This document shows, piece by piece, positions 994 to 19,185 of a DNA stretch of 64,000 nt (positions are counted from its first letter, which is position 1; every line of letters begins with the position of its first letter). Below the pieces are notes generated by a model. It searched no databases and had not been told where the DNA came from. It worked only from the letters and a program-made list of their open reading frames with translations. The stretch is taken from NCBI GenBank assembly GCA_012031225.1, contig JAAUTZ010000003.1:1-64000 (forward strand), given 5' to 3'. A program made the position numbers and the translations under genes. This DNA is from Chloroflexaceae bacterium. Lineage in GTDB: Bacteria > Chloroflexota > Chloroflexia > Chloroflexales > Chloroflexaceae.

Positions 994-1722
994 CTATGAC
1001 ACTCGGCGAATACTGAACGGGTTAAAGTCGGTCTGTGCATCAAAAGCATCCACACCTTCCACTCGTTTCAAATAGCCCGTTAAGGCGTAGGTCACTGGTG
1101 TGAACAGCACCTCAACCCCGACCTTGAACACATAGCTAGAGACGATGATATTCCAGATCAGAGCAGCGGAAAAGCCCTCTGCAAAGGCGAAGGCAATCAT
1201 TACAAAGAGTATTGTGTCCACGCCTTGCCCTACCACAGTAGAGCCAATTGTGCGTGACCAGAGCCAGCGGCCTTGAGTGAGCACCTTCATCTGGGCAAGC
1301 AGGTAGGCATTTGAAAAGGAGCCTGCTAGGTACGCAATGAGGCTAGCAAGCACAATACGGGGCGTTGTACTGAGTACACTGTCATACGCTTTTTGTCCCA
1401 CCCGCGCCGACCAATCGGACTCTCCTGGCAGCACGCCAACTAGTGCAACGGTTACTGCCAGCAGGAAGGCTGACACAAATCCGATCCAGATGGTGCGTCG
1501 TGCCCGGTCATATCCATAGACTTCGGTCAATATATCACCAAAGATGTAACTCAAGGGAAATAGCAATGTCCCGCCATCATAGATAAAGGGGCCAAGCACA
1601 ACTATCTTGGCTGACGATGCAAGGTTGCTAATCAGCAGAATAGCTACAAACAACCCCACAATGACATCATAGTAGCGATAAAGCAGACCTACGGTTGTTT
1701 TTTCTTGGCAATTAGCACTCAT
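994..1722 (-). CDS. Queuosine precursor transporter (YhhQ/QPT family)
   Basis: The 242-residue protein has about six hydrophobic segments and the family signature FGDILTEVYGY at residues 61-71, typical of the YhhQ/VUT transporters that import 7-deazaguanine queuosine precursors such as preQ0 or preQ1. Length and topology fit the family. It is the last gene of a five-gene minus-strand operon and starts 11 bases after the stop of the large ATPase. Housekeeping copies are usually near queuosine genes; here it sits downstream of a DpdA-like transglycosylase. The likely role is therefore to supply precursor for DNA or tRNA modification, which is an inference from context. No queC, queD, queE or folE gene is in the window. 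Confidence 0.85.
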   Translation of the reverse strand: MSANCQEKTTVGLLYRYYDVIVGLFVAILLISNLASSAKIVVLGPFIYDGGTLLFPLSYIFGDILTEVYGYDRARRTIWIGFVSAFLLAVTVALVGVLPGESDWSARVGQKAYDSVLSTTPRIVLASLIAYLAGSFSNAYLLAQMKVLTQGRWLWSRTIGSTVVGQGVDTILFVMIAFAFAEGFSAALIWNIIVSSYVFKVGVEVLFTPVTYALTGYLKRVEGVDAFDAQTDFNPFSIRRVS

Positions 1723-1733
1723 TCGTCACCTTC

Positions 1734-4700
1734 TTAGAACTCTATCTTAAGACTCAGTGCCCCAACTTGCTGGAGTTGGATTAGTTCTTCAAGGATCTGC
1801 GCGGACTCATTCTGCCTAGCTGCCTGCTCTAGGATCATAGCCACATTCACTGATGCTGCGGAAGACAAGGACAGGCTCCTGACAAGATATTGTCGCGCAG
1901 ATGAAACCTTCTGTGAGGCGCGGGCAATCTGCTGCTGGAGGTCTTGAACCGATCGCTTTGCCTCGTGACGCAATCGGGGAGGTTTCTCTTCGAAGAGCCA
2001 TGACGGATCGGCAGCTTGCTGTGCAACGGACTGGATTTTGCCATACACTTTGTGAGTTGCATGTGCTTTATTGGCAGACTCCGTCTGCACAAAGAGCAGT
2101 CCCTTGAGCGCGATTGTCCGGCTTACAATATCTGCCAAGTGCTGAAACAATGCCTGAAAGCTACGCTCATCGTCCTCAATGTAGTACGGTGGCGGTTCAG
2201 GCGGATTGACGAAAGTCAGCAACTCTTGGATCTGCGTGCAGAGTTGGCTGGCAATCTGTTCATAGGCAGCCTGTCGTTCATCTGTCATCCCCTGAAAGAC
2301 TTGCTCACAGTGCTCCAGTACCGGCTCAAAGCGGCTAATCTCACCCAGCGCAACCATCCCCGTTTGCGACAGTACAGCACGTGCATCCCGCAACACTTGG
2401 TCAAGCTGACTGCTCAGTGCATCTAAATTATCAGTTCCTTTCACCATGCGTTGTACAGCCGTTTGAAGTCTGGCAAGTCTCGGCGCAAAGGCATTCCATC
2501 GCCCATACTGATGAGCACTGGTGTCCCACTGGTTGACGTGGCTGACCAAGACCTCGACGTGTTCGGGAGAGCACGCATTGCCGGATGCCATCAAAAAGGT
2601 TGCCTCAGCCAGCAGTTTCTGTCTCTTCTCTTCCAATTCTCGATAGACGGCTGTAATATGATGCTGCAATTTGCCAAGCGGCGCGTCAGGTGCATTGAGT
2701 GTCAGGCGCGGGATTGTGTCCAACACACGCTGCCGTGCGGCTTGATGTCTGGCCTCTGCTTCGGCGTGGCACAGAGTTTCATATGTCTCAAGTTGCTGCT
2801 CAATAAGCTGTACATCCCATACTAGCTGAGAATGATTAGTAGATTGATCGGGTGTCTCGATGAGTGCATTGAGTTTGATCGTCAGTTCGTCCGGTACCGA
2901 GACAAGTTGCGTGCACCGTTCAAGGAGATTTTGTACCTGTGTGCGTATTTCTAGATCAGTCGGTACATCTGTAGACACGAGTAGACTTCCCTCCTGCTTC
3001 ACTATCGCGCGTGCGAGCATCAACTGCAATACATATCTTGCCTCTGCCACCGCAAACCCCTGTGATCGCAGGCTCTGATACGCATCATTCCACGTCAAGG
3101 CACCATCGGTTCGTACCCGGTTTGCTAGCACAACCTCGGCTGGGTGGGGGGTAAAGTACACGGCTGCCTCTGTGCCCGTCCACTGCTCAATGCGGAGCAA
3201 ATCACCATACTGCCGCGCACGGCTCTTGAAACCAGCATGCCGTTTTTGTCGAAAGAGGGCGGCAATGTTTCCCTTGCTGCCCTTCTGCACCGTGCTCCCT
3301 ACACGCTGCGCTGGTGCCACATGGCGCAGGGCGGCTGCATAATCATCAAGCAGTGCCATCCAGTGCTGATAGGTCGCTATCGGCTGATAGTCCGGCCAGC
3401 GCGAGGCGAAAATCTGGTGCAGGAACTCTTTCAGACCACTCGTACCTGCCGCGAGAACGCCGAAAGGTGTCTGGCTGAAGAGCGACTGGGGAAACAGATC
3501 GGCCAGCAGCCATTCTTGCAGGCGTGCGATAGTATCGGTAATGCGTGCCCGATCACGGTCAGGGGCATCATCGATCTGCTCTTGGCGCAGATAGTTGAGC
3601 AAACTGAGGATTACTGCTGCCGAAATCGGTTGAGGGCTAAGGTAATGCTCGATCCACGCTAGTCCACCGCGTAACCCGTTGTCCGCGGCGCGATTGAGCG
3701 CGAGGTGAAATACAATGTAGGTGTCCGACACAATGTCAATGCGGGATACGGCTTCGGTACGCAAATCAATGCGGAACCCGAGAACCAGATCAGCATCATC
3801 CGCAGGGCGGAGTAGTGGGGCAGGAGTGCTGTCTGCCATCACCACCACGCGCAGCCGACGCAGAGGGTAACGTGATGATGCAGTCCCTTCCAGCATGCCT
3901 GCATAGCGATCGTCGGCATCTAGGAGCACGTCATCTAGCCCTTTCCACCCATGCAGATCATGCACTCGTGGGGGGAAGATAAGCGGTAGGACCAGCGAAC
4001 TAAAAATCTTTTGTGCTGTTTCGGCAAACAGCTGCTGGTCAGTGATCTGCATCCAGTAGCGTCGCAGTAGCACGTTTAGGCGGTGGGCTGGCCGTCCAAC
4101 GCGCTGAAGTTCGATGAGCGTCAATCCCTCTTCCAGTTCAGTCACAATCTCACCACGTAGCGTATTATTCAATTCGTGCCAAGCGTGGGCCAGATCATAC
4201 CTACTGGCAATCTCTACAGGGCACCCACGCGGAAATGCTGCGATGAGGCGCAGCACCTGTGCGAGTGGATACGAATGCTGAAAATAGGGGAGGCTCAGCA
4301 GTTCACCCACGAGGGCTGGAATAACTCCGCGATCACCATCAAATCGGATCGTTCCATTGAGAAAATCATTCACGAGATCAATGGGTGTATATGATCCCAT
4401 ACGGTCAGCAGCACGAATCGCTACGCACTGCAAGACGTTGATAACCGTGCGGGGCCCATTGCTCAAGTCTTCCCGCTCACACAGCTGCCCTAAGGACTCA
4501 AGGGCCGGACGATCAATCGCTGCCGCTTCGTCCTCGGAGAGCTGAAAAGCGGTCACATACTGCTGCCACAGACGGGCTGGAAAATCGCGGTCGTAGATAT
4601 GGCGCATGTCGAGGTACAGGCGATCATCCTTGATACGGTGGAGAATGTCGCCCGCTCGGTCGGCTAGGATGCGTTCAGTGTCTGGGTCCATCGTAAATAC

Positions 4701-5399
4701 GATGCCGAACGGAATCTGGCGTGTGCGCAGGCCCCAGATCAGCTGTCGCAGTGCCACCAGCACACCTTTATTGGCATTGCCGATCAACTGCTGGATTTCA
4801 TCAACGACAACGACAAGCCCCTGATGTCCGGCCCGCTGGGTCAATCTCGTGACCAGTTCGAGGAACGCCACGAGGTTGACGCTAATGTCATCGAAGTCCA
4901 GATAGCCACGCTCAATCTTATCCCGTATTGACGCTCGGGCCTGTTCAAATGGAATCTGAAAGGTCTGCTCATCTCGGCGGGCCATAGCATCGGCAGACAC
5001 AGTGAGAAAAGTATCGTAGGCATCGTCAAGCTCGGTACAGTAGGCAGGCAGCATAAAGACCGCCCAGTCATACAGGGCCTGCGCCAGTGCGGCAAACGAG
5101 CCACAGGAGATCGGCGGCACCGCTAGCAATCCCGCCTGTTGGCATGCATCCCAGATGCCAATAGCTGTTGCCGTTTTCCCATAGCCGAATGGAGCCACGA
5201 TGCAGGCTTTGGGGGTTTGTGCTTGCCGAACAGCCTGTACAAACCGTTGGCGTAAGTCGGCCACGATGGGCTGCTCGACATAGGTGAGCGCGTGAAAGGC
5301 ATACACATCGCGCACAGTGGTCACCGATGCGTGAAGCATCTGGGTATCGAACGTGGCAACGATAGGGGCTTTATTCGCAATGCTGATAAGACTGCTCAT
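1734..5399 (-). CDS. Large P-loop ATPase of a defence-type operon (DpdH/BrxC-like in layout)
   Basis: The 1221-residue protein has a Walker A motif APFGYGKT at 69-76 and a Walker B motif GLVVVVDE at 194-201, followed by a sensor-like region, so the N-terminal 300 residues form an AAA-type ATPase. The rest is long and mostly helical; the last 350 residues are rich in Q, E, A and L, like a coiled coil. Size and order are reminiscent of the big ATPases of phage-defence loci (DpdH of the Dpd island, BrxC/PglY of BREX), but I cannot assign a family from sequence alone. Its ATG shares one base with the stop of the upstream winged-helix gene (TGATG), implying translational coupling. No PglZ or methyltransferase gene lies nearby, which argues against BREX. 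Confidence 0.7.
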   Translation of the reverse strand: MSSLISIANKAPIVATFDTQMLHASVTTVRDVYAFHALTYVEQPIVADLRQRFVQAVRQAQTPKACIVAPFGYGKTATAIGIWDACQQAGLLAVPPISCGSFAALAQALYDWAVFMLPAYCTELDDAYDTFLTVSADAMARRDEQTFQIPFEQARASIRDKIERGYLDFDDISVNLVAFLELVTRLTQRAGHQGLVVVVDEIQQLIGNANKGVLVALRQLIWGLRTRQIPFGIVFTMDPDTERILADRAGDILHRIKDDRLYLDMRHIYDRDFPARLWQQYVTAFQLSEDEAAAIDRPALESLGQLCEREDLSNGPRTVINVLQCVAIRAADRMGSYTPIDLVNDFLNGTIRFDGDRGVIPALVGELLSLPYFQHSYPLAQVLRLIAAFPRGCPVEIASRYDLAHAWHELNNTLRGEIVTELEEGLTLIELQRVGRPAHRLNVLLRRYWMQITDQQLFAETAQKIFSSLVLPLIFPPRVHDLHGWKGLDDVLLDADDRYAGMLEGTASSRYPLRRLRVVVMADSTPAPLLRPADDADLVLGFRIDLRTEAVSRIDIVSDTYIVFHLALNRAADNGLRGGLAWIEHYLSPQPISAAVILSLLNYLRQEQIDDAPDRDRARITDTIARLQEWLLADLFPQSLFSQTPFGVLAAGTSGLKEFLHQIFASRWPDYQPIATYQHWMALLDDYAAALRHVAPAQRVGSTVQKGSKGNIAALFRQKRHAGFKSRARQYGDLLRIEQWTGTEAAVYFTPHPAEVVLANRVRTDGALTWNDAYQSLRSQGFAVAEARYVLQLMLARAIVKQEGSLLVSTDVPTDLEIRTQVQNLLERCTQLVSVPDELTIKLNALIETPDQSTNHSQLVWDVQLIEQQLETYETLCHAEAEARHQAARQRVLDTIPRLTLNAPDAPLGKLQHHITAVYRELEEKRQKLLAEATFLMASGNACSPEHVEVLVSHVNQWDTSAHQYGRWNAFAPRLARLQTAVQRMVKGTDNLDALSSQLDQVLRDARAVLSQTGMVALGEISRFEPVLEHCEQVFQGMTDERQAAYEQIASQLCTQIQELLTFVNPPEPPPYYIEDDERSFQALFQHLADIVSRTIALKGLLFVQTESANKAHATHKVYGKIQSVAQQAADPSWLFEEKPPRLRHEAKRSVQDLQQQIARASQKVSSARQYLVRSLSLSSAASVNVAMILEQAARQNESAQILEELIQLQQVGALSLKIEF

Positions 5400-6223
5400 C
5401 AGTACTCCATCTGAGGTATCAATGCAGGAAACAGTGGCTCACGGATGAGCACTGTTTCACCGCCATCGCCGGACCGCCGAATCACCCCAAGAGTCTTTTC
5501 AGCCTGTTGTAAGACTTCATCCATAGCCTCTTCCTCCAAGAGTGTCGAGTGGCAGACGTGCTCCCGTGTTGCCGCGTCGAGCCGCAGTGGTGTACCCACT
5601 GGATGCCCTCTTGCTGTAGCAATGCCCTCCAGCGCAACGACAAGGGCTTCTGGGGGACATGTGGGACGACGGCGAAAGGTGTTGCCGATGATGCATGGGG
5701 GACTGATCACACGTAGCCAGTGGAGAATACCCGATACACTTGACGTACTAAACGAGATACCACTGATACCAAACTGGTGCTCAGCCGCTACCAGCACCAT
5801 AGTTACTAGGCGGTTTCTATCAATCGTCACTGGAGCCTCATCCCAGAGGATCGTGGCAATGGTTCGATACGACCATGCGAAGTGTGCTCTGTCCTGCTCA
5901 GGCTGCCAGAGCCACCAGTAGCGCAGATGGATCAGTTCCGCAAACAGCAGTGCATCGTGTACCGCCACGTCTGCGAGTTGCCGCCCCAGATCGGTCAGGC
6001 GTACTTGTCCGCGCTGCTCTGCGAGTGCAGGTTCAATCAATCCAAGGGCACGCAGCGAAGCAAAGACTTTTGTGACTGATTGCCGCCGACCAATATCGAG
6101 GTCACGGGCACGCGCTTGTTCGAGCAACGCTTCCTCACTCGATACCTTTGCCATACGCAGCAGCAGCAGCGCATGACGTGCAATGATCGGGCTGAAATCA
6201 TGGCGAACGTGAAAGGATGTCAT
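5399..6223 (-). CDS. Winged-helix protein between DpdA and the ATPase (DpdG-like position)
   Basis: The 274-residue protein starts with a region that reads as a winged helix (about 12-85: helices ending in SVTKVFASLRALGLIEP, then a wing GQVRLTDLGRQL). The remainder is a helical domain I do not recognise. Its start overlaps the stop of the DpdA-like gene by four bases (ATGA) and its stop overlaps the ATPase start by one base. It could bind DNA as part of the complex, or regulate the operon. In Dpd islands a protein of comparable size (DpdG) accompanies the ATPase DpdH; equivalence here is inferred from position and not shown by sequence. Confidence 0.6.
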   Translation of the reverse strand: MTSFHVRHDFSPIIARHALLLLRMAKVSSEEALLEQARARDLDIGRRQSVTKVFASLRALGLIEPALAEQRGQVRLTDLGRQLADVAVHDALLFAELIHLRYWWLWQPEQDRAHFAWSYRTIATILWDEAPVTIDRNRLVTMVLVAAEHQFGISGISFSTSSVSGILHWLRVISPPCIIGNTFRRRPTCPPEALVVALEGIATARGHPVGTPLRLDAATREHVCHSTLLEEEAMDEVLQQAEKTLGVIRRSGDGGETVLIREPLFPALIPQMEY

Positions 6224-7239
6224 CGAATTCCTGTGCGCATTCGGGCATAGCGTGATCTTCTGATGATTTCCTGAATGGAAACACTGAGCAATTCCATGCC
6301 TCGATTTAATGCATCTACGGTATCACGAATAACAATTAAATTGTGCAACGCTTGATCGAGCCGATCACGTTGGAGATGTTCAAATGATTCGCAAAATGGG
6401 CAGGTGTGTCCGGTTAGTTCCTTGAGTTGGGCAAACTCTTCGGCACTGTAAGCAACACCGCCAATTTCGCGCAGCATGCCGTGGGAGACATTACGACGAC
6501 CGAGAAATGGCAGCAAAACATTGCCGTAGCCGGCCGTGCGAATCCAGCATGAGCTGTCGAAGCTCGCCACTTCCAGCTGGTGGAGGGTCGGTATCAGGGC
6601 TGGCGTGCCAATGCCAAAAGCGTGGGTCTGGAAGCCGAAGCGTGCTGCCAAGTCCTGCAAAAACTCCAGATTGCGCAGTGCCCGATAGGTCAGCATATTG
6701 ATGTCCTTGCCTGCTCCGGTTGTGTCGAAACTGCCAAATCCGACTGTTCGGTAGCCCATATCTAGGTATGCTTCAACACAGGTACGGATCTGTTCACGAG
6801 TATGACCCTGAACAACTGGAATGGCTTGCTGGCGAATGTCTGGTGCTATGTCGGCAGAGAACAGGCGCGTTACCGCAATGGTTGCATGCACACGGTCTTC
6901 GACTTCCTGTGCACTCAAATCAGATGAGGGGACATAATCGGGCAGGACATAAACGTCTGCCCAGCGATTCTGGTCATACCAGACCTTCAATCGGCGGTAT
7001 AAGTCCTCATAGGTAATCTCGCCTTGCTGCACAAAATAGCCGCCCGAATCAAACCAGATACGGCTGTGCCCAACGAAATGCTCCCGCACAAAGTTCACTG
7101 TAGGTCGTTCTGCAAGCCCGGGTAGCGGCGTGAGAATAATCTCGCTGAAAGGATGAATGCCTGCTTCAAGCCTTTCTATACGCTCGAACAAGCCAAATAA
7201 ATCAGAACGTTTGAGTGTTGCTGATGCTACAAATCTCAT
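6220..7239 (-). CDS. DpdA-like tRNA-guanine transglycosylase homologue
   Basis: The 339-residue protein has the layout of a tRNA-guanine transglycosylase. WFDSGGYFVQQG at 62-73 matches the DSGGFQ motif with catalytic Asp64. VLPDYVP (98-104), PVVQG (141-145) and VGFGSF (166-171) match the substrate-pocket segments. SFDSSCWIRTAGYGN at 226-240 places the nucleophile candidate Asp228. CPFC (280-283) followed by HNL at 299 resembles the zinc site, with one cysteine fewer than in bacterial TGT. DpdA enzymes use this fold to exchange guanine in DNA for preQ0. It shares four-base overlaps with both neighbours and is cotranscribed with a 7-deazaguanine transporter. A role on DNA is inferred; an archaeosine-type or tRNA role is possible but less consistent with the neighbours. 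Confidence 0.8.
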   Translation of the reverse strand: MRFVASATLKRSDLFGLFERIERLEAGIHPFSEIILTPLPGLAERPTVNFVREHFVGHSRIWFDSGGYFVQQGEITYEDLYRRLKVWYDQNRWADVYVLPDYVPSSDLSAQEVEDRVHATIAVTRLFSADIAPDIRQQAIPVVQGHTREQIRTCVEAYLDMGYRTVGFGSFDTTGAGKDINMLTYRALRNLEFLQDLAARFGFQTHAFGIGTPALIPTLHQLEVASFDSSCWIRTAGYGNVLLPFLGRRNVSHGMLREIGGVAYSAEEFAQLKELTGHTCPFCESFEHLQRDRLDQALHNLIVIRDTVDALNRGMELLSVSIQEIIRRSRYARMRTGIR

Positions 7240-7751
7240 AGTACCGTCTTAATGTGCAATCGCCACACAATTAATCTGCGATGCTTTCCTTTTTCGACGG
7301 CTTCTTGCTGAAATCCCATATGTGTATAAAAATTATTAGCGGGAGACCCTTCTGGACAGCGCAGGGCGATGGTTTCTCGGTGACACTGGCGACATTCCGC
7401 TGCCAGAGCCACCACAAGCGCACGACCAACCCCACGTCCCTGTATCTGTCTATTTGTGCAGATATCGTAAATAGCCGTTTCTGTGCCGCGTACACGGTGA
7501 TTGAAGCGCACAAACCCGACAATCTGCCCATCTATTGCGGCGACTAGCAGTCGTTGTCGTTCAGCCGCTTCTGTAAACACGGCTCGTGTCAGGAATCCTA
7601 GTACGTTCCGATGCTGATCTGCAATCGTTTTGCAGGCATCGATATCAGTTACAGTGGCATGGCTAATATGCACCTGTACCATTGTACTATCAATATGGCT
7701 TGCTATTTTTGTACTATATGGTATATTGTTGATCATGATATTACTCGACAT
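7236..7751 (-). CDS. GNAT-family N-acetyltransferase, first gene of the DpdA operon
   Basis: The protein is up to 171 residues long with a clear GNAT core: the acetyl-CoA loop QGRGVGR at 104-110 and the late motif PEGSPANNFYTHMGF at 133-147. The domain begins about residue 25, so a start at 7685 (Met23) is an alternative; neither start has a good ribosome-binding site. Its stop overlaps the start of the DpdA-like gene by four bases, so it belongs to the same operon. The substrate is unknown. Because preQ1 carries a primary amine and the phage Mom protein is a GNAT-fold enzyme that modifies DNA bases, acetylation of a 7-deazaguanine side chain is a plausible but unproven role; protein acetylation or toxin neutralisation are alternatives. 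Confidence 0.8.
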   Translation of the reverse strand: MSSNIMINNIPYSTKIASHIDSTMVQVHISHATVTDIDACKTIADQHRNVLGFLTRAVFTEAAERQRLLVAAIDGQIVGFVRFNHRVRGTETAIYDICTNRQIQGRGVGRALVVALAAECRQCHRETIALRCPEGSPANNFYTHMGFQQEAVEKGKHRRLIVWRLHIKTVL

Positions 7752-8084
7752 GTTGTATATATTGCCATATTATAACAGAAAATGAAGAGCTATGGTACAG
7801 GTATTCAGCTCACATGAAACTACACAATCACAATCGCGCAAGGCTCATCAAGCATATGTGAGTATCTTCTTCTTTTTCAACAGAAATTTTCAAGCATATC
7901 AACCACAATTCTCCAGATAGGTGGTCAACTGACCTATAAACAGTGTCATCTGTCACAGTATTATTGCACAGGCAAATTGTTTCGGAAATAGTCGGATAAA
8001 AACCATTCCTGTTCGAGCTTGTGGACGGGCGCATGCATATAATAACAGCAGACAATATTCACAACCTCTCGACGGAGAGATGTT
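7752..8084. promoter_or_regulatory. Divergent control region of the two island operons
   Basis: This AT-rich 333-base gap separates the two operons. A TATAAT -10 element for the minus-strand operon lies at 7769-7774 (reverse strand) and another for the plus-strand operon at 8038-8043; neither has a good -35 box at 17 bases. Between them are a short palindrome GGTCAACTGACC at 7923-7934 and a direct repeat TGTCA-TC-TGTCA at 7944-7955, which could be operators. A 75-codon minus-strand frame at 7828-8055 has no family features and no evident ribosome-binding site, so I do not call it a gene. Confidence 0.4.
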
Positions 8085-10910
8085 ATGTCACACGGTTCTG
8101 CCGACAACCCGATATACACGCTTGATGGATTGCCCGTAAGCTTATTGGAACTCAGCGAAACCACGACTCAGCGGCTTGCTGTGCTCGGCATCAAGACCGT
8201 TGAACACCTCGCTCGGATTACACTGCTGCAACAACCTCTGGTGCGTGTAGAACTTACGGAAGTGATCCAGCAGGAGCTTCGGACACGCCTCTGGCTCGAA
8301 AACATCCAGTGCTTTACAGCATACGCTAGCGGAACTGGTTCTCTCGCTCAGTTTATCATCGAGTCGTACCTGTTTCATTTCGTTGCATACATCACATTAG
8401 AGACACACCATTGTACTTGCACCTACCAGTGGGCAGATGCCAGACTGGTTGGCAATACGCCATTTCACGCGCCGAAATTGAAAAGAACCTCGCGCCGAAA
8501 GAAGCCTCTGGCTGTTCCCTCCAATCTCCAGCAAACATTATCGCTGTTTGATGAAGTGGAGCCGGAAACTCAATACCATGATGATCCCCCTGTTGAAAAC
8601 TTGAGTGTTGAGGATGATTCGCAGGTAATCCAATCCACAATGCGTGAATGGATAGATGCACCTAGCGATGTTGATGAAATGACTACGTCTGCCCTGTTGG
8701 CTTCTGAACCCGTTCAACCACAGGAAGATGTCGTCACACATTCTGCACCGGTAATATCAATACTGGAGTATAGAGAAGAAACAGCACCTTCTGAAGACCA
8801 GAGTGTAGATGACCATGACCCGCCAGTGGATGATACGATTATCGCCACCACCTATGCTGATGATGACTGGAGCACCGATGAACTCCCAGACACGGACGAA
8901 TGGCCCCGTACTGATGAGACCCCTAATGTAGCCGCTCAGTTTGCTGCTGAGACAGCGGAAATAACATCAGCATTAATACAGAGCGAAGAAGCAGGAGAGC
9001 AAACTACCGATATGCCAATAACCGATACTATGTCGTTAGTAACCACCGTTCCTGTCTTACGCGGTTCAGATGAAGATAGCTTACTGCCACTCAACAATGA
9101 GAATGAAGAGGTGGAACAGGTTGTATTCATCCCTGATGTTGAGTTAATTGAAGGCTCGTTATACCTAGATACAATGAACGAACCTCAGAAGTATGGTGAA
9201 ACAGACCGCAGAGCACGGGCTGTTGCCCAATGGGATGCATATAGCCATTGGAATCATACTTTAATAAAGTTTGTCACAGCAGGCAAGCGACACGGTGATC
9301 CTGTATTTTTGAGCATTGACGATGACAGCATTCGCTTACTAACAGAGCAGCCATCCTCTGGTGGTGGCTCACCACTTACTGATTTCTACCAAGCAGTACG
9401 CAAACGAATCGTGTCTGCAAAAAACGTCAGATTGACCTCGCTTAGTGGGCGCAATGAGTTTGGCGAACCTAAAAGTGTCGCTTTTCTCGCGGCAATGGTT
9501 ATTGCCGCATCTCGTATGGCCGCCGAAGAAGATGAAGAACAAGATGTCGCTGCTAACGACTATTTCTCGCGATTGCGTGATGTGTTGGGTATATATGGAC
9601 AGGGACGACCAAAAGGTATGGAGAACGGCGCAGAAGAGTTGCTCTGGAAAGACTGGTCACGCTGGTTAGAAAGACAGGGCTTTCAAGCTACTGCTCACAG
9701 CAGCAGCGATGGTCCGAAAAAATTCATCAGTTATCCGCTGTCCCAGGCACTGTTGCGTGGTGCTGACAAAGACCGACTACGCAGGTTATTCACTGAGAAG
9801 CATTGGCCCCATGATTGGGATGCCGATACACTCATCTTCTATGTGAAACGAGAAGCTCCATATCTCACAAAACACCTACAGAAACTTCTTACATCCGGAA
9901 CTGAACGCTTGCAGGCAGTGACAGAGGCTATCTATGATGTGTACGAAGATTGGGATGGTAACGAATACTCTGGGCGATCACGTTCGGGCCAAGTAGGCAA
10001 TCGGCACATACGGGCAGGTCTGATGCGTTCTGTCAATATATTTGCAGGCACAGTTACTTATCGCATCTATCCACGTATTCCAGCAAAATGGCAGACAGAT
10101 AAACTGACTGTCAGGAACTCAACAGAGCAGCATACGCTGTTTGTGGAACGTCCGGGCTGGTATATACCATTCCATCAAATGGATGAGCATGAACTTGGCC
10201 AAGGTATCAAGTTTCGGATAGAACAATCACCGGTACTGGAAAACCTTATCCTCCCCGCTCGATCATTCTGGGTATTGACACCTGATCCAGATGATCCCGA
10301 CTCTGGTTCTTATGCTTCGTGGGGGTACCCTCAACTTGGCTCCCCCTTCATCTTACTCTGTCGGCAAGAAATACGCCAGCAAATTGAGCATTTGCGTGAT
10401 GAAAACCTTATCTACTGGTCGGGTGAACCACGCGATATCTTCGGCACTGGTGAGTGGCTAGAAATTGATCAGTGTCAGGTCAGATCTCAGGCTTGGGGCG
10501 GCGTTGAGATCGAAAACCAAGAACTCTACGATATGCTGCGTCCCAGAGAGAACATTAGCATCAGTCTCTCTGGTGGGTTACGTGCGCCAGATGGCAATGG
10601 GTGGATGGAGGCGTACGGTCCAGAGATTACGATCTTCGGTTTTCAATCGGCAGTTGATGTGACCATCTCTCGCCAGAATGAAAGCGGTCGCCTATGGGAG
10701 CAGGTGCAGCAGACAAACCAGTCATTTTCATTTGACTGGCCCGGTATGGGCAATTATCTAATTGAGGCAACGGGAACCAGTGAACTGAAATCGCGCATTG
10801 TACGTATTGTGTCTTGGGATAGTATACACAGAGCTTCCGTCCCTCAGCCAGAACGTATTGCTATCAATGGCTGGCATATCTGTGGAGCATTGATTGAGGA
10901 AAAGGAGTAG
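8085..10910 (+). CDS. Unrecognised 941-residue protein with a long acidic linker, first gene of the helicase operon
   Basis: I do not recognise the family. Residues 1-95 look like a small helical domain, with ERLAVLGIKTVEHL-like helix-hairpin-helix character (QRLAVLGIKTVEHLARI). Residues about 130-360 are an acidic, low-complexity linker rich in D, E, T and S. Residues 370-941 form a folded region containing GRPKGMENGAEELLWKDW and later beta-rich segments with many tryptophans. No nuclease, methylase or ATPase motif was found. A purine-rich ribosome-binding site (ACGGAGAG) precedes the ATG. The gene is visibly more AT-rich than the chromosomal genes after 22 kb, consistent with transfer. It is followed after five bases by the 457-residue gene, so the two are cotranscribed. 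Confidence 0.75.
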   Translation: MSHGSADNPIYTLDGLPVSLLELSETTTQRLAVLGIKTVEHLARITLLQQPLVRVELTEVIQQELRTRLWLENIQCFTAYASGTGSLAQFIIESYLFHFVAYITLETHHCTCTYQWADARLVGNTPFHAPKLKRTSRRKKPLAVPSNLQQTLSLFDEVEPETQYHDDPPVENLSVEDDSQVIQSTMREWIDAPSDVDEMTTSALLASEPVQPQEDVVTHSAPVISILEYREETAPSEDQSVDDHDPPVDDTIIATTYADDDWSTDELPDTDEWPRTDETPNVAAQFAAETAEITSALIQSEEAGEQTTDMPITDTMSLVTTVPVLRGSDEDSLLPLNNENEEVEQVVFIPDVELIEGSLYLDTMNEPQKYGETDRRARAVAQWDAYSHWNHTLIKFVTAGKRHGDPVFLSIDDDSIRLLTEQPSSGGGSPLTDFYQAVRKRIVSAKNVRLTSLSGRNEFGEPKSVAFLAAMVIAASRMAAEEDEEQDVAANDYFSRLRDVLGIYGQGRPKGMENGAEELLWKDWSRWLERQGFQATAHSSSDGPKKFISYPLSQALLRGADKDRLRRLFTEKHWPHDWDADTLIFYVKREAPYLTKHLQKLLTSGTERLQAVTEAIYDVYEDWDGNEYSGRSRSGQVGNRHIRAGLMRSVNIFAGTVTYRIYPRIPAKWQTDKLTVRNSTEQHTLFVERPGWYIPFHQMDEHELGQGIKFRIEQSPVLENLILPARSFWVLTPDPDDPDSGSYASWGYPQLGSPFILLCRQEIRQQIEHLRDENLIYWSGEPRDIFGTGEWLEIDQCQVRSQAWGGVEIENQELYDMLRPRENISISLSGGLRAPDGNGWMEAYGPEITIFGFQSAVDVTISRQNESGRLWEQVQQTNQSFSFDWPGMGNYLIEATGTSELKSRIVRIVSWDSIHRASVPQPERIAINGWHICGALIEEKE

Positions 10911-10915
10911 CAATT

Positions 10916-12289
10916 ATGCCTCGTTGGTATCTCGGATTTCGCTGCCAAGCAAAAAATCGTCAGTCGAAGGCGAATCGATTTGCTGAACAGGTTCAACAGC
11001 ATGACTTGGGAACCCACATACCTGTTATGCGTGTTGAGAAGGGACAAAAACAAGGTGAATTCTATCTCTTCCTAGCAATCGAGAGCCAGAGCACAGGCGA
11101 TGTCCCAGTTGCAGTACAGCATGTTTTACCTCTTTTTAGCTCTCTGGGAAAACCAATCCAAAAACCGGGTAGCTCTCTCTTCGAGCCTTTTACGCTTGAC
11201 CAAATTCGCGCTATGGTAGGCACTGAGCACACCGTGCATGACTACACGCGACTGATACCCTACATACCCCACAAAATTCCGGTACAGAGCGATCCATTTG
11301 CTCATCAGGATCAAGCTGTGCATCCTACAGAGGCCGATATGGAAGATCTGCTGCGACGCTCTCAGCACTACGATCGCCTGCTGTTCTGGCTTTCGGCAGC
11401 GGGAAGTGGAAGCTGGCAGACCTTTCAAAATGTTTGCTGTGCATTGGGGTTAGAGGGGCGACAAGATGTACCTGCTCATATTTTGCGCCGCCTGCGTCTC
11501 CTCGGACATATGGAAACCTCTTCCGATCGGTCGCGTTGGTCAGCCACACCGCCCGTGTTGGTGCAGTCTGAAGATGAACGCTCATACTTCCTATGCGGTC
11601 AACGCGACCATGCGATCCTACAAGCATTCAGGAACAGAGGCCATATTGAGGAGGAACCACAACCAAGCGGCGCGGCTCCGGCACGTATTCTGATTCACGC
11701 ATTCGATAATATAGATAGTATCACGAAGTTTGCGCAACAGCATACTATCAAGTTTGCAGGAAATGCCGCACTACGCTTGGCACAGATACTTCCGCCACTT
11801 GATGAATGGAAACACACACTGGATGTGCTGCCTCATTTCTCTCCATATCAATATCAACCAAAACGGTTTTCTGGCACAGGCTTTGTCGAAGCTAACTTTG
11901 ACCAACATGCTAGTGGGTTCTACCAGTTCTGGACACTTAAACAGCATGCATCGGCATCCGATAATGCCGAATATACCCTCTTTTACGATGCAGAGCATGA
12001 ATTTTTTTTACGTGGTGATTGGTATGGACTACGATTCCTAGACCATCGGGCGAGGGGTCTGTCGTGTCCTATAACATATGAGGCGGCATCAGGGAAGCTG
12101 GCAATACCGATAGACTGGCGTTGGCCAGAACTGTACGAGCGTGTCCTAGTGTTGGCATCCGGCAAGTTACCGATACACCACAAGCAATGGCTGATTTACG
12201 AGTCAATCACACCAGCACTGCTCGCTGAGCTGATACCCAGATTGAGTCTAGAACGCGAGGAGACAACAGAGTCATGCATGATGTTGTAG
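10916..12289 (+). CDS. Unrecognised 457-residue protein between the 941-residue protein and the helicase
   Basis: No family was recognised. The N-terminal 90 residues form a compact alpha/beta segment beginning [15 protein letters not shown]. The middle (about 120-215) is helical and includes [20 protein letters not shown] and then a winged-helix-like stretch ending [15 protein letters not shown]. The C-terminal half is rich in aromatic residues, including [10 protein letters not shown] and [17 protein letters not shown]. Its 3' end overlaps the helicase start by 16 bases, so the helicase is probably translated by coupling. Accessory proteins of this kind often serve as specificity or loading factors for defence helicases, but nothing in the sequence proves a role. 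Confidence 0.7.
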
Positions 12290-15200
12290 GAACTTATCAA
12301 CGTTTAGAGCAGATGTATCGCCTGTATATCAAGAGTGCCTTTCCCCTGCGTTCCGAGGTGCTAACAGGCGAAAGGGATAAACTCCTCGAGCAACGTGGTG
12401 TTCTCAGTCAACCACCTCTGCTCGAAACGGTGCCTGTCTACGCCCAATCAGGATATAGGCTCACCGACGCAGCCAAGAAGCTACCACGGGAGTATGCCGG
12501 CTTGGAGATGTTAGGACAGAGGCTATTCCCTCCTCATCTTACCCTGTACAAACATCAGTGGGATAGCCTATACCAAGTACTGGTCAATCGTAAAGACCTC
12601 GTGGTTACCACAGGAACTGGGTCTGGTAAAACCGAGTGCTTTCTCCTCCCGCTGCTGGCCCAACTGGCACGTGAGATACCCGCTTGGCAGCCTGCACATC
12701 CAGCACCGAAAAACCGTGACTGGTGGAATGATCCTGATAGCAACCGCACGTCCCAATGGCAGCACACCCAGCGTCCCCACGCACTCAGAGCTATCATTCT
12801 TTACCCACTGAATGCCTTGGTAGAAGACCAACTCCGGCGTTTGCGGATGGCGCTGGACGATGATCCTGTGCATCACTGGCTTGACCGCAATCATGGCGGC
12901 AACCGGATTACGTTTGGGCGCTATACAGGACTGACACCTGTGTCGGGCAGACCAGACAAACCACAGAATATTGATCGTCTGCGTGATGCGCTGCATGAAC
13001 TAGATAAGCAGCGTCAGGAGGTGATGTCTGCGATCAGTTCCAATCCCAATCTGGATAAAGATGTGCAGTTTCATTTCCCGCGCATGGATGGCGGCGAGAT
13101 GTGGTCGCGCTGGGATATGCAGGAAACCCCACCCGACATCCTCATCACCAACTACTCGATGCTCAACATTATGATGATGCGGAGTATTGAGGATGCGATC
13201 TTTGAACAAACGAGGGCGTGGCTGGCAGAACCCGACCACCCTGAGCGGGAATTCTTCTTGATCATTGACGAACTGCATGCCTATCGTGGCACGCCCGGCA
13301 CCGAAGTTGCCTACATCATTCGGTTGTTGCTTTCGCGGCTTGGCTTAGAACCTAACTCACCCCAACTGCGTATCCTGACAACCACTGCTAGCTTGGAAGA
13401 TGATACTGCCGGTACTGGCAGAAAGTTCTTGCGGGAGTTTTTTGGGCGCGATAACTTCGCATTCATCAGTGGCACGCAGCTTGACCCACATCCCGGCTCA
13501 CGATTGAATCTGGTACCATACCAAGCAGATTTCGCTGCCTTTGCCCAGCAGGTGCAGCCTGATCCACTCCAGCACGCACCAGACAGCACGGCATTATCGG
13601 TACGGACAGCGATAGGGGAACTGGCAGCAAAACTAGGACAGCCGATCATACCGGGCAAAACGGAAATAGAGCGCTTGGGTGAAGCACTGGTGCGTCTTAA
13701 TGCCGCCGATGCTCTACGAGATGCCTGTAAGGCTCAGAACGGCTCTGTGCGTCCCACCCAGATTCCGCACTTGGATAAACATCTGTTTCCAACCGCATCC
13801 ACAAGAAATGCTCCAGCGTCCGACGCGCTGCGTGGTCTTTTGTTAGCACTCGGTATGTCCCGACATTCTGCTACAGGGCGCTCACCACAACCAGTGCGTG
13901 GACACCTGTTCTTTCATCATCTGCTGAACCTGTGGGCCTGTTGCAATCCGCATTGTACTGACCCAGCCGTAGACCAGACGGTGCGAGCAACCATATCTAC
14001 AGCCGCCACAGCGGATCGCCCGACGATTGGAGCGATTCACCATACCCATCGCATCGCGTGCTCGTGCGGGTCGCGTGTTCTCGACCTGATTGTCTGTGAG
14101 GTCTGTGGCGATGTTTTTCTGGGTGGTTACAAGGCAGAGCGGACAATAGGCAACCAGAAGCGCATCATCCTAACTCCTGACCAGCCAGACTTAGAGAATA
14201 TGCCCGATCGCGTGAAACTCGATCAGCGTTATGGGCAATATGCTGTCTTCTGGCCACTCCCGCACGATGTTCACCCATGGGAAACCACACCCCAAGATGT
14301 TGAATGGACAGTAGAGGGAGTTACTCGCAAATGGGTGAAAGCAAAACTTGATCGCGCTACCGGCATGATGACCCTGTTAACCCATGATGCGGCAGATCCT
14401 ACTTCAGAAGAGATCCCCGGTTGGCTCTACCATATCGTCGATCCCGCCAAGAAAAGTCGCGGCAAAAGCAAAGGTGTGAACGACACGCATATCGAAAGAG
14501 AGCCATCCATGCCAACGAAGTGCCCACGTTGCGATGCAGATTACCGCCATCGTGAGGTCTTCAAATCACCGCTACGGAACCATCGGACGGGGTTCCAGAA
14601 AGCCTGCCAAGTGATTGCCAGTGCGCTGTTCCGCGAGATGAATGCAGATGTTACGGCTGGTACTGCTACAACATCAGGCAAACTGGTGATCTTCTCCGAT
14701 AGTCGGCAGGATGCTGCCAAGCTCGCAGCCGGAATGGAACGCGATCATTATCGGGATATGGTGCGGCTGTCCCTTATTCAGGCATTCCGCGATTACTGGG
14801 ACGATCTAGTAGGCTACATGCGAGCGATGTTTAATAGCAGCAGTGTTCAATTGCCGACGCTGAAAACTCTCAATCCTGACTTGTACGCGGAAGCAAGCAA
14901 GCCCTTCCATCCAGATGATACGCTGCGCCAGCGACGTTTCGCTATGAGACACACATCGCTAATAGGAGAAGCACCGATGTGGTTTATGGGTGCTCCTCCA
15001 GTAAATCCACAGGCTCGTATTGCTTGGACTGATCTGCTACAGGTATATCCTAGGCATATTCCACTACCATACCTTGTCAAAACAGTCCACGATGTGCTGC
15101 TCCAGTTCGGCATTTGTCCCGGTGGTTCCGAATTTACTGCTAAGCGATATAAGTCTCTGAGTCAATGGGAGCCTTGGTTTACCTGCTACGATTGGAGGAG

Positions 15201-18072
15201 TACAACCCCAACACCACAAGTGAGTGCGAATGCTGCCCAATCACAGCACATAGTGCGTAATGCTGCCCAATCACAGCACATAGTGCGTATGGAAGAGCAA
15301 CTGACTTCGGAAGTGATGTATGCTCTTTTCCCGCATACAGCTCGCACGCTGGAAGGACTTGGGCTAGTCCGGGTGAGCTATCGTCCGTATGGCAGTCCAT
15401 CCTCTGATGTTATGATTGCTGTCGATGTAGCCATTCGCCTACTCAGCACCCGTCGCGCTCATCGCTATGCCCGTTCCACATTCCGAGATGGTATCAAGGA
15501 TAATCTGCGAGGATTTATTATAAAGTATCTGAATGCGCGCAGCATTCCAGAGCACGCCGTACAGCAGCAGCTGTTGCAATCAGGAGCAGGCATACCTTCC
15601 GCCTCAGGATTGGCACTGTCACCGGATAAACTCACCCTTGTGCCGCCCCCACCAGCGGATGAAGGTGGGAAACGACTCGGCTACCGATGCCCAGCCTGCC
15701 ACGCCTTCTATCTCCAAAACGTTGGCAACTGTCCAGAGTGTGTCACACCCACGCTCGTACCTGATACCACCAGAACCGACTTCGACTACTACACCTTGCT
15801 AACAGAGCGTGCTGATGCGTCAAGCTTCCGTATGAACTGCGAAGAGTTGACTGGTCAGACCGACAAGGCAGAGCGCCCAAAACGTCAACGCTGGTTCCAG
15901 AATATCTTTATCGCTGGAGAAATCCCGCAAGTGTATGGGGTCGATCTGCTGAGCGTCACCACAACGATGGAGGCTGGCGTAGATATTGGCGCACTGAATG
16001 CGGTTATGATGGCAAATATGCCGCCGCGTCGCTTTAATTACCAACAGCGTGTCGGGCGTGCTGGTCGTCGCGCCAGTGGTGTCTCCTTTGCCGTGACGTT
16101 CTGTCGGGGCCGCAGCCACGACGACTTCTACTACCAGCGTCCTGAAAGCATTACCGGCGATCCGCCGCCGCCCCCCTATGTTGATATGCGTAGTGAGGAC
16201 ATCTTCCGGCGGGTGCTTTTCAAAGAGGTGCTGCGTCTGGCGTTTGCCAATGCTGTCACGCTGGATGACACGGGGCGGCAGGATAATGTCCATGGTGAGT
16301 TCGGGCAGGCGGAACATTGGGATGGCTATGCTCCGCATGTTGCAACGTGGCTGAACAGTCCGGCGAATGCCCCCCTTATTGAGCGGGTAATCAACACCCT
16401 TACCGTTGAAACGCAGTGGGCAGGAGATGCAGCATTCCACAAACAAACGCTAACCTATCTCCGCACACAGTTAATTGCAGATATTACCCGCATTGCCAAT
16501 GATGCCGCCTATACCCAAGATGCCCTGAGTGAACGGCTCGCCAATGCAGGATTACTACCGATGTTTGGCTTTCCCACACGAGTGCGCAATCTCTATACAC
16601 GCTGGCCGTCAGCCCAGCCTTGGCCACCTGAGAGCGGCACCGTTGACCGTGATCTTGACCTCGCTATCAGTCAGTTTGCGCCCGGCTCGCAGACTGTAAA
16701 AGATAAAGCCGTGCATACGGCAGTCGGGGTCGTCGCACTGCACCCCAGAGGCGGCAAACTGGAATCAGCGAATGGTTTCTATCCACCACTGCCGCAGAGC
16801 AACGATCACCCTATTGGACTCTGCGAGCATTGTCTGGCGGTTGTTCGGTTAGATCCACTCCCCATGCCTGCTGCTGGTGGCAAAGAACTAACCAGACAAA
16901 CCTGCCCAGTGTGCCATCGTTCTGAGTCTCTGCGTCCGCTTGATGCACGTGAGCCGCGGGGATTCTTCACCGACCTAGAACCACAAGATTTCGATGGACA
17001 GTTTGAGTGGAATCCCCGCTCCACACAACCCTCGCTCAGCATCAGTGCAACAAGTGAGCCTCCATCTCTCATCGCCAACTGTGGTGTCATGGCTTTGAAA
17101 GACCATATCCTGTCCGTCAACGATAATGGTGGCAGGGGTGGATTTGACTTCCAGAAAGCCAAAGTGTATAGCGCGGCAAAAGAGGGAGCTTATGCAGTTG
17201 CTGTCCACGAAACCGACAAGACAGCAGTCGCAGCAAAAGAGGGCAATGTTGGCGTTTCGGGCGAATTCTATCGGGTTGCGCTCCTATCGCGGCGGATGAC
17301 AGACGTGCTACTGGTAAGCATCAACGACTGGCCGCAGGGAGTCTTTGCTGATCCGACCACGGTGGAGGGTCGAGCAGCTTGGTATTCCTTCGCTTTCTGG
17401 CTGCGACTGGCCGCTGGAGCGCATCTGGATGTAGATGCGCTGGAATTGCAGGCTGGGTTCCGCTCCCTGCCTGATGCAACGCATTCCGTAGTTGGGCAAG
17501 CATTTCTCTGCGACCAGCTTGAGAACGGGGCAGGATACTGTCGTTTCCTCAGTGGCAGCACAGAGTTTCGAAAAATGCTGGCACAGGGTGATCAACAAAT
17601 ACAAAGCTCCATTGCGGCAAAATGGATCGCGTCGGAACACAGCGCAGCATGTGACACTTCGTGTAATCTCTGTTTACGCGATTTCCACAACCTGCCATAC
17701 CACGGCTTGCTTGACTGGCGGTTGGGACTAGATATGGTGCGGATTGCACGTTCTCCAGCTGCAAAGATTGACCTCGCATCGCCGTGGGATACTGCACCGA
17801 GTCCTTGGGCAGCGATTGTGTCGGCGGCAACTGCACCGGTGACAGCAACCATGAAACGCCTCGGCTACAACGATCCAGTACCGTTTGCTACGCTCGCTGG
17901 GTATATCAATGATAAACACAGGAGGCTTGTCATTGCCTGTCACCCGCTCTGGCAAGCCGATCATCCTGACTGGTTGGCGGCGCAGGCTGCGGCAACGGCG
18001 CAATACCCTAGCTATGACGTGAAACAGATGAACCCGTTCAGGCTGCTGCGACGACCAGCCGAGTATGTGTGA
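12274..18072 (+). CDS. Giant DEAD/DEAH-box helicase with zinc-binding and DUF1998-like C-terminus
   Basis: The 1932-residue protein carries superfamily 2 helicase motifs: motif [11 protein letters not shown] at 112-121, motif II DELH at 332-335, motif III TTTAS, and motif [12 protein letters not shown] at 1257-1266. Between and after the two helicase lobes are several CxxC pairs (C596/C598 with C608/C611, CPRC, CPAC..CPEC, CEHC..CPVC). Near the end CDTSCNLCL (from residue 1793) matches the four-cysteine end of DUF1998-type helicases, a class that includes MrfA and the large helicases of Druantia and DISARM defence systems. It should translocate on or unwind nucleic acid using ATP. A 30-base tandem duplication lies inside the gene at 15229-15288. 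Exact system membership is not resolved. Confidence 0.85.
15229..15288 (+). repeat. Perfect 30-bp tandem duplication inside the helicase gene
   Basis: The 30-base unit at 15229-15258 is repeated exactly at 15259-15288, so the peptide [10 protein letters not shown] occurs twice in a row. The duplication keeps the reading frame and falls between the helicase lobes. Its identity suggests a recent slippage event. Confidence 0.95.
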
Positions 18073-18760: not shown

Positions 18761-19185
18761 GTGCGCTCGCGGGTGCGGCATCTGAACGCACAACAGCGGG
18801 TGGGGCTGGTCATCATTGATTACCTGCAACTGCTGGTGCGCGACACCCGCGAGCGCGGGATGGTGGAGGATGTGAGCCACATTAGCTGCCAGTTGAAGCT
18901 GCTCGCCCGCGAGTTGCACCTGCCGGTGGTGGCGTTGTCGCAGTTGTCGCGGGCGGTGGAGACCCGCGCGGGTAAAATCCTGCAAATAAGTAACTTGAGC
19001 AAAATTTGAAGCTTAGAGCAGAACGAATACGTGGTACTGTTTATATAACGTGAAGATCTATATCACCGCGACAGTGACCGCAAGGGTATCGCGGAGCTGT
19101 ACGTGGCAAAGCATCGCAATGAGCCAACGGGGGGGCGGTGCAGTTCGATGCGCCTACGACGCGCTTTGCGAATCTGGCGCGGTAG
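18761..19185 (+). pseudogene. dnaB: C-terminal remnant of replicative helicase DnaB
   Basis: The frame begins inside the RecA-like core with VGLVIIDYLQLL (Walker B region), continues with LARELHLPVVALSQLSRAVE, and after a frame change reads SLEQNEYVVLFI, stop, REDLYHRDSDRKGIAELYVAKHRNEPTGG, then after a second frame shift at a run of seven G reads AVQFDAPTTRFANLAR before a natural stop at 19183-19185. These are the successive conserved segments of the DnaB C-terminus. The N-terminal two thirds are missing, and there is an internal stop plus at least two frameshifts, so it is not functional. It may come from a phage or plasmid replicon. Confidence 0.85.

Follow-up and report, generated by a model that had tools for sequence, protein, structure and literature searches.

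In the window, by which we mean the whole analysed stretch of 64,000 nucleotides, two operons diverge from a shared intergenic region. On the forward strand, the genes assigned to DruF, DruL and DruE overlap or nearly touch, the 3' end of the druL-like gene overlapping the start of druE. On the opposite strand, a set of five genes starts 333 bp away, neighbours either overlapping or being at most 11 bp apart. The features are, in order of position:

994..1722, minus strand: YhhQ-type queuosine-precursor (preQ0) transporter, last gene of its operon (TIGR00697 130 bits, over the cut-off; PF02592 E 1.5e-53)
1734..5399, minus strand: SspC/BrxC-like AAA+ ATPase, 1,221 aa (profile match to the SspC set)
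5399..6223, minus strand: SspB/DUF4007-like protein, 274 aa (fold and profile match)
6220..7239, minus strand: TGT/DpdA-like guanine transglycosylase, 339 aa (Pfam TGT E 1.4e-5, NCBIfam DpdA E 2.2e-7)
7236..7751, minus strand: GNAT acetyltransferase, 171 aa (Pfam Acetyltransf_1 E 1.3e-13)
7752..8084, no strand: shared intergenic region between the two divergent operons, 333 bp, 39% GC (ORF map, GC)
8085..10910, plus strand: DruF-like protein, 941 aa, with an N-terminal extension of about 370 aa (PADLOC DruF2/DruF4)
10916..12289, plus strand: DruL-like protein, 457 aa (PADLOC DruL4 E 1.6e-20)
12274..18072, plus strand: DruE-type SF2 helicase, 1,932 aa, Druantia type II/IV clade (PADLOC DruE4 and tree placement)
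12610..12633, plus strand: DruE Walker A motif TGTGSGKT (residues 113-120)
13267..13278, plus strand: DruE DEAD-box/Walker B motif DELH (residues 332-335)
16045..16068, plus strand: DruE SF2 motif QRVGRAGR (residues 1258-1265)
17650..17676, plus strand: DruE C-terminal zinc motif CDTSCNLCL (residues 1793-1801)

The preliminary description of this DNA had reported a giant helicase with a helicase core, multiple zinc sites and a CDTSCNLCL end, and such a protein, its core being of the SF2 type, is indeed encoded intact at exactly 12274-18072 (+), where the ORF map gives one uninterrupted frame of 1,932 codons. Pfam finds DEAD and Helicase_C in it, seven CxxC pairs occur besides CDTSCNLCL, and 18 cysteines, those of CDTSCNLCL included, are identical in all six aligned relatives (two more in five of the six). 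The Pfam DUF1998 model did not reach E 0.1 against the helicase, and the assignment of a putative C-terminal zinc domain rests on the CDTSCNLCL motif and the full-length DruE profile. Two PADLOC profiles match the helicase end to end, DruE4 with 1,591.9 bits (residues 2-1930) and DruE2 with 1,524 bits; other profiles reach 667 bits (DruE1), 49 (DpdJ) and 33 (DrmA), and it is by such profile scores that DrmA was compared, the helicase tree holding no DrmA sequences and no row verified as MrfA. In a tree of 33 Chloroflexota helicases, the window protein groups with those of Chloroflexus islandicus and of the genomes G395 and G252 at 100%, and this group is joined at the next level by G319, G133 and G354; for clade labels, the G319 helicase is a full-length DruE2/4 match and the G267 helicase a DruE1. 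With plasmid-borne DruE proteins added (Oscillatoria, Calothrix, Deinococcus, Nostoc and another cyanobacterium), the window DruE was nested in the same clade, its nesting among DruE2/4 being strongly supported, and two DpdJ proteins were placed away from it. The closest solved structure by sequence is 9wae, deposited under the title 'Helicase'. Profile scores and trees thus place the window helicase among the DruE proteins of the type II/IV clade.

Its two preceding genes fit this assignment. The DruF-like protein matches DruF2 (E 5.6e-23) and DruF4 (E 4.2e-18) over residues 370-658, the profile match covering the N-terminal part only, while about 560 aa of it are homologous to DruF of relatives. 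The DruL-like protein also matches the C-terminal third of DruF2 (PADLOC); its structure model was too poor for use (pLDDT 49). In PADLOC, type IV consists of DruE, DruF and DruL without DruM and DruG, DruM being a type II protein that is missing from type IV (PMC8565338), and profile searches of the eight island proteins gave no match to DruM, DruG or a methylase. Since DruF-like and DruL-like genes precede DruE, the helicase and its two preceding genes are therefore assigned to a divergent Druantia type IV. The same trio is present in G252, and DruF and DruL homologues accompany DruE in Calothrix and Deinococcus aquaticus. Thus the earlier view that the helicase lies outside a Druantia or DISARM context has to be given up: it matches DruE4 and DruE2 end to end, its neighbours match DruL4 and DruF2/DruF4, and the phylogeny proposed as a check places it inside the DruE2/DruE4 clade, with DruF-DruL partners in close relatives.

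Several further observations concern Druantia-type genes. DruF residues 1-370 (window 8085-9194) have a helix-hairpin-helix-like start; this extension is present in DruF of the TGT-bearing Chloroflexales and missing in G252, Oscillatoria, Calothrix and Deinococcus. In G319 and G133 a DruF-DruL fusion of about 1,100 aa lies beside DruE (L054 6976-10461, L055 13408-16677) and connects the DruF of type II to the split genes of type IV. C5-cytosine methylase genes adjoin more distant helicases of the DruE2/4 clade in Nostoc (C052) and G354. In G080 (L089), a DruE-related helicase from a separate branch shares a gene run with a DUF6079 ATPase, possibly as an ARMADA- or BREX-related system.

In the 333-bp intergenic region, promoter-like sites are more frequent than in shuffles, an excess that does not by itself indicate function; an alignment for a conserved operator gave no clear shared motif and an Rfam search no RNA family. 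The dpdA neighbour named in the preliminary description is found 5 kb upstream of the helicase as a dpdA-like gene (6220-7239, -). Its matches to Pfam TGT and NCBIfam DpdA are both below the curated cut-offs, the latter with 30.1 bits against a cut-off of 200, and therefore its product is, by profile score, a TGT-superfamily relative of DpdA and not canonical DpdA. It keeps D64 of a DSGG motif, D101, Q144 and D228 as well as zinc-type C280/C283/H299, which we take from knowledge of the TGT family to be the catalytic set; Q144 is a histidine in Oscillatoria. A search of phages did not find the TGT subfamily. Of two viral-contig scans, one gave nothing and the other three weak partial matches. 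These are IMG/VR contigs (L194, L195, L196) with relatives of residues 192-252 at 34-36% identity.

The 274-aa protein has no significant family match and no Pfam DUF4007 match. In a PDB fold search, its AlphaFold model (pLDDT 78) matched SspB 6juf (probability 1.00, E 2.3e-4), the only PDB match below E 0.001, and a fold search against viral structures gave nothing with E < 0.001. A profile that included the Oscillatoria and Haloplanus homologues matched the DUF4007 set near full length (probability 66%, E 5.7e-5); one built from close sequences only did not match DUF4007. The 1,221-aa ATPase has only weak matches to BrxC/BrxD families, while its profile matches the SspC set with 96.7% probability (E 3.9e-10) over the ATPase domain only, and DUF6079, BrxC-4 and DpdH far less. 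Members of the SspB and SspC comparison sets from a separate BREX-4/Ssp cluster of the same genome were used to check these sets by PADLOC. As predictions, the SspB-like and SspC-like identities are thus given by fold and profile only. In the DNA-modification system from which the names come, the recognition protein SspB has a triple winged helix and SspC belongs to the AAA+ ATPases of the ORC/Cdc6 type, the two together forming the target-site finder (PMC10853773). Other identities were tried and rejected: DpdG/DpdH for the 274-aa and 1,221-aa proteins (profile-profile probability 0.1-0.5%) and DUF6079 for the ATPase (profile probability 5%, with no DUF6079 match in its own genome). The BREX type 4/Ssp-like cluster elsewhere in the window's own genome (L176, contig C198 of G000) holds two SspB/DUF4007 genes, SspC, SspD and BrxL, together with a second SspC/BrxC-like ATPase.

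For precursor supply, the window cluster contains YhhQ and no preQ0 biosynthesis genes. YhhQ is the only PF02592 gene found in the window genome; a partial QueC match on another contig (about 60 of 210 positions) is not convincing. Since a canonical tRNA Tgt is also encoded in this genome, the substrate of YhhQ may also serve tRNA.

The same divergent seven-gene island, GNAT-TGT-SspB-like-SspC-like against DruF-L-E, is found in Chloroflexus islandicus, and in Chloroflexales MAG.66 it is present up to the contig end inside DruL. Only these seven window genes, plus one distant enzyme match, have counterparts in the C. islandicus neighbourhood, so the shared island is not leftover synteny. With 47-56% its GC content is below the 60% of the remaining window sequence, the corresponding values in C. 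islandicus being 51% and 62%, and an IS200-type transposase and a serine recombinase lie to its right. A short ORF at 18761-19009, with a match to a portion of the C-terminal domain of DnaB helicase, is probably a gene remnant at the island's right edge. In C. islandicus a second, divergent SspB-like/SspC-like pair in convergent arrangement adjoins the island (L071 15876-20756); the corresponding stretch of MAG.66 (L070, about 11341-14078) looks broken.

Outside the Chloroflexota, the Oscillatoria plasmid NC_019763 carries DruF-L-E 1.8 kb from the ATPase, the SspB-like gene and a GNAT-TGT fusion, in a different relative orientation. In the plasmid collection the TGT subfamily occurs in two records only, one of which is the best DruE record of 123. 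A Haloplanus plasmid holds the TGT together with an SspB-like gene, a small AAA gene, a BrxC/SspC-like ATPase, HerA, GNAT and a QueF-like gene, without Druantia; its module adjoins QueC, QueE and a QueD-family gene and, by gene neighbourhood, ties the TGT to a presumed 7-deazaguanine supply. In all four bacterial loci found for the TGT subfamily, the module lies within 2 kb of Druantia IV genes, across two phyla and in two orientations. No bacterial copy without Druantia was found, the whole-genome scan having used a two-sequence profile that could overlook distant cases, and no effector-like gene other than Druantia is common to all bacterial module loci. Conversely, DruF-L-E occurs without a nearby TGT module in Calothrix, Deinococcus aquaticus, G252 and G395, the last of these on a short contig, with no cassette-type TGT seen in its genome. 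As such loci exist, the TGT module appears to be either optional or gained several times. A TGT near DUF6079 in G230 (L084), considered as a further link, reads as a housekeeping Tgt. In G328 (L110 and L100), a Dpd cluster comprises DpdH, DpdD and a 705-aa DpdA bearing a DpdC-like N-terminal part, and a second, short DpdA-like TGT is paired with an unknown protein of about 257 aa.

From these data, we consider it somewhat probable that in this locus a 7-deazaguanine DNA-marking module is coupled to Druantia IV and serves self/non-self discrimination. The proposal draws on what the analysis shows: the gene identities (those of the SspB-like and SspC-like proteins from fold and profile), catalytic motifs that are intact in both DruE and the TGT, the layout of the operons and a linkage that recurs across two phyla. 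YhhQ would import a 7-deazaguanine precursor (preQ0 or preQ1), and the SspC-like AAA+ ATPase with the SspB-like DNA-binding protein would locate target sites on DNA, a step modelled on the published Ssp scheme. There the TGT would swap guanine for 7-deazaguanine, DNA rather than tRNA being its presumed substrate and this base the presumed chemistry of the mark, while acylation, either of the base or of a partner, may be the task of the GNAT. DruE, as the DNA-translocating SF2 helicase of DruF-L-E, would restrict invading DNA; Druantia would read the mark as a signal of self, and unmarked phage DNA would be attacked. Given the C5-cytosine methylase genes beside other helicases of the clade, we infer that the TGT module could take a methylase's place. 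Against this marking model speak the DruF-L-E loci that have no TGT module nearby, the lack of a DpdB or DpdC homologue among the island proteins, the TGT score below the DpdA cut-off, the restriction of the SspC match to the ATPase domain and the presence of a canonical tRNA Tgt in the genome. In C. islandicus, moreover, no YhhQ or QueC match was found, and the model leaves the precursor source there unexplained.

Defence islands are common, and the two operons might thus be independent systems that share one mobile island: an autonomous Druantia IV and a BRC-like system of TGT, GNAT, SspB-like and SspC-like proteins, co-located because defence genes cluster. That DruF-L-E occurs without the module, and the module with HerA and without Druantia in Haloplanus, is what such a reading expects. 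However, the proximity to Druantia IV in four of four bacterial loci, in two phyla and two orientations, and the failure to find either a bacterial module without Druantia or another effector-like gene shared by all of them make it rather unlikely, if still worth serious attention. GNAT and AAA+ proteins are also known from systems with toxic or sensing roles, and the TGT module might accordingly be directed at the invader or at the infected cell, for instance with deazaguanine inserted as a block into phage DNA or tRNA, while Druantia would work separately. The presence of a precursor transporter in only one of the loci is in line with this idea, whereas the linkage of the Haloplanus module to preQ0-synthesis genes suggests a constant supply, and the SspB/SspC-type pair is part of self-marking systems (PMC10853773, PMC12839542); we regard it as improbable.

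The preliminary description had further proposed a hybrid of Druantia-like and Dpd-like immunity. At the level of the locus this idea survives, as the GNAT/TGT/SspB-like/SspC-like operon recurs beside Druantia IV. As a statement about the helicase, namely that it unites the lineages of Druantia and Dpd and is the founder of a new class, it has the dpdA-like neighbour in its favour; but the full-length DruE4/DruE2 match next to 49 bits for DpdJ, the position within the DruE2/4 clade, strongly supported and apart from the two DpdJ proteins, and the DruF/DruL partners render it highly implausible. The hybrid is consequently a pairing of two gene modules and not a hybrid helicase. The second module is not Dpd proper, because DpdB, DpdC, DpdG, DpdH and DpdJ are missing and the ATPase/DNA-binding pair resembles SspC/SspB.

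How type IV Druantia avoids its own genome is not addressed in the papers we found, and our literature search found no paper naming both Druantia and DpdA. A partner operon apparently able to write an unusual base would be a direct and testable answer. If the marking model holds, DNA from Chloroflexus islandicus isl-2 should contain 7-deazaguanine. More generally, we tentatively suggest, at somewhat less than an even chance, that restriction by Druantia IV can depend on modification, with a TGT on an Ssp-type recognition/AAA+ chassis writing a 7-deazaguanine, possibly acylated, as the mark of self. If true, this would be a restriction-modification design joining three defence lineages, and the TGT/GNAT marking module would be portable between restriction engines, with HerA in haloarchaea and Druantia in bacteria.

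Compared with known systems, the window resembles Druantia type IV (PMC8565338) in its type II/IV-clade DruE, its DruF- and DruL-like genes and the absence of DruM and DruG from the island, while it differs in the N-terminal extension of DruF and in the attached divergent GNAT/TGT/SspB-like/SspC-like/YhhQ operon. With BREX-Related Capture (BRC, PMC12839542), it shares GNAT and TGT and the lack of DpdB and DpdC; the 274-aa protein may correspond to the DUF4007-type protein of BRC, given its SspB fold and the 66% profile probability but no Pfam DUF4007 match, and the 1,221-aa ATPase, by its weak BrxC matches, to the BrxC-type ATPase. The Haloplanus locus is reminiscent of BRC and has HerA as well. 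A HerA/FtsK translocase is universal in BRC (PMC12839542), whereas profile searches of the window island proteins found neither HerA/FtsK nor PglZ nor a DUF6079 match, and Druantia IV stands in the effector position. Ssp/BREX type 4 (SspB-SspC-SspD) has SspB and SspC in the same gene order as their counterparts here; in contrast to its phosphorothioation, the window island has no SspD sulfur-transfer gene and the chemistry gene is a TGT. Dpd is similar in having a TGT homologue, a 7-deazaguanine precursor gene in the operon and a YprA-family helicase, but the window lacks DpdB, C, G, H and J, its helicase is a DruE and it seems to import the precursor instead of synthesising it. With BRIGADE (PMC12458937) the likeness is one of concept, a YprA-family helicase from the Druantia/ARMADA branch being combined with a 7-deazaguanine cluster. 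BRIGADE loci were found only in halophilic archaea and typically encode a PLD nuclease and a pair of YprA helicases beside a biosynthetic cluster (PMC12458937), none of which holds for the window. By ORF map and profile searches, the window island has neither a second YprA helicase as in BRIGADE nor the BrxHII helicase and PglX methylase of ARMADA.
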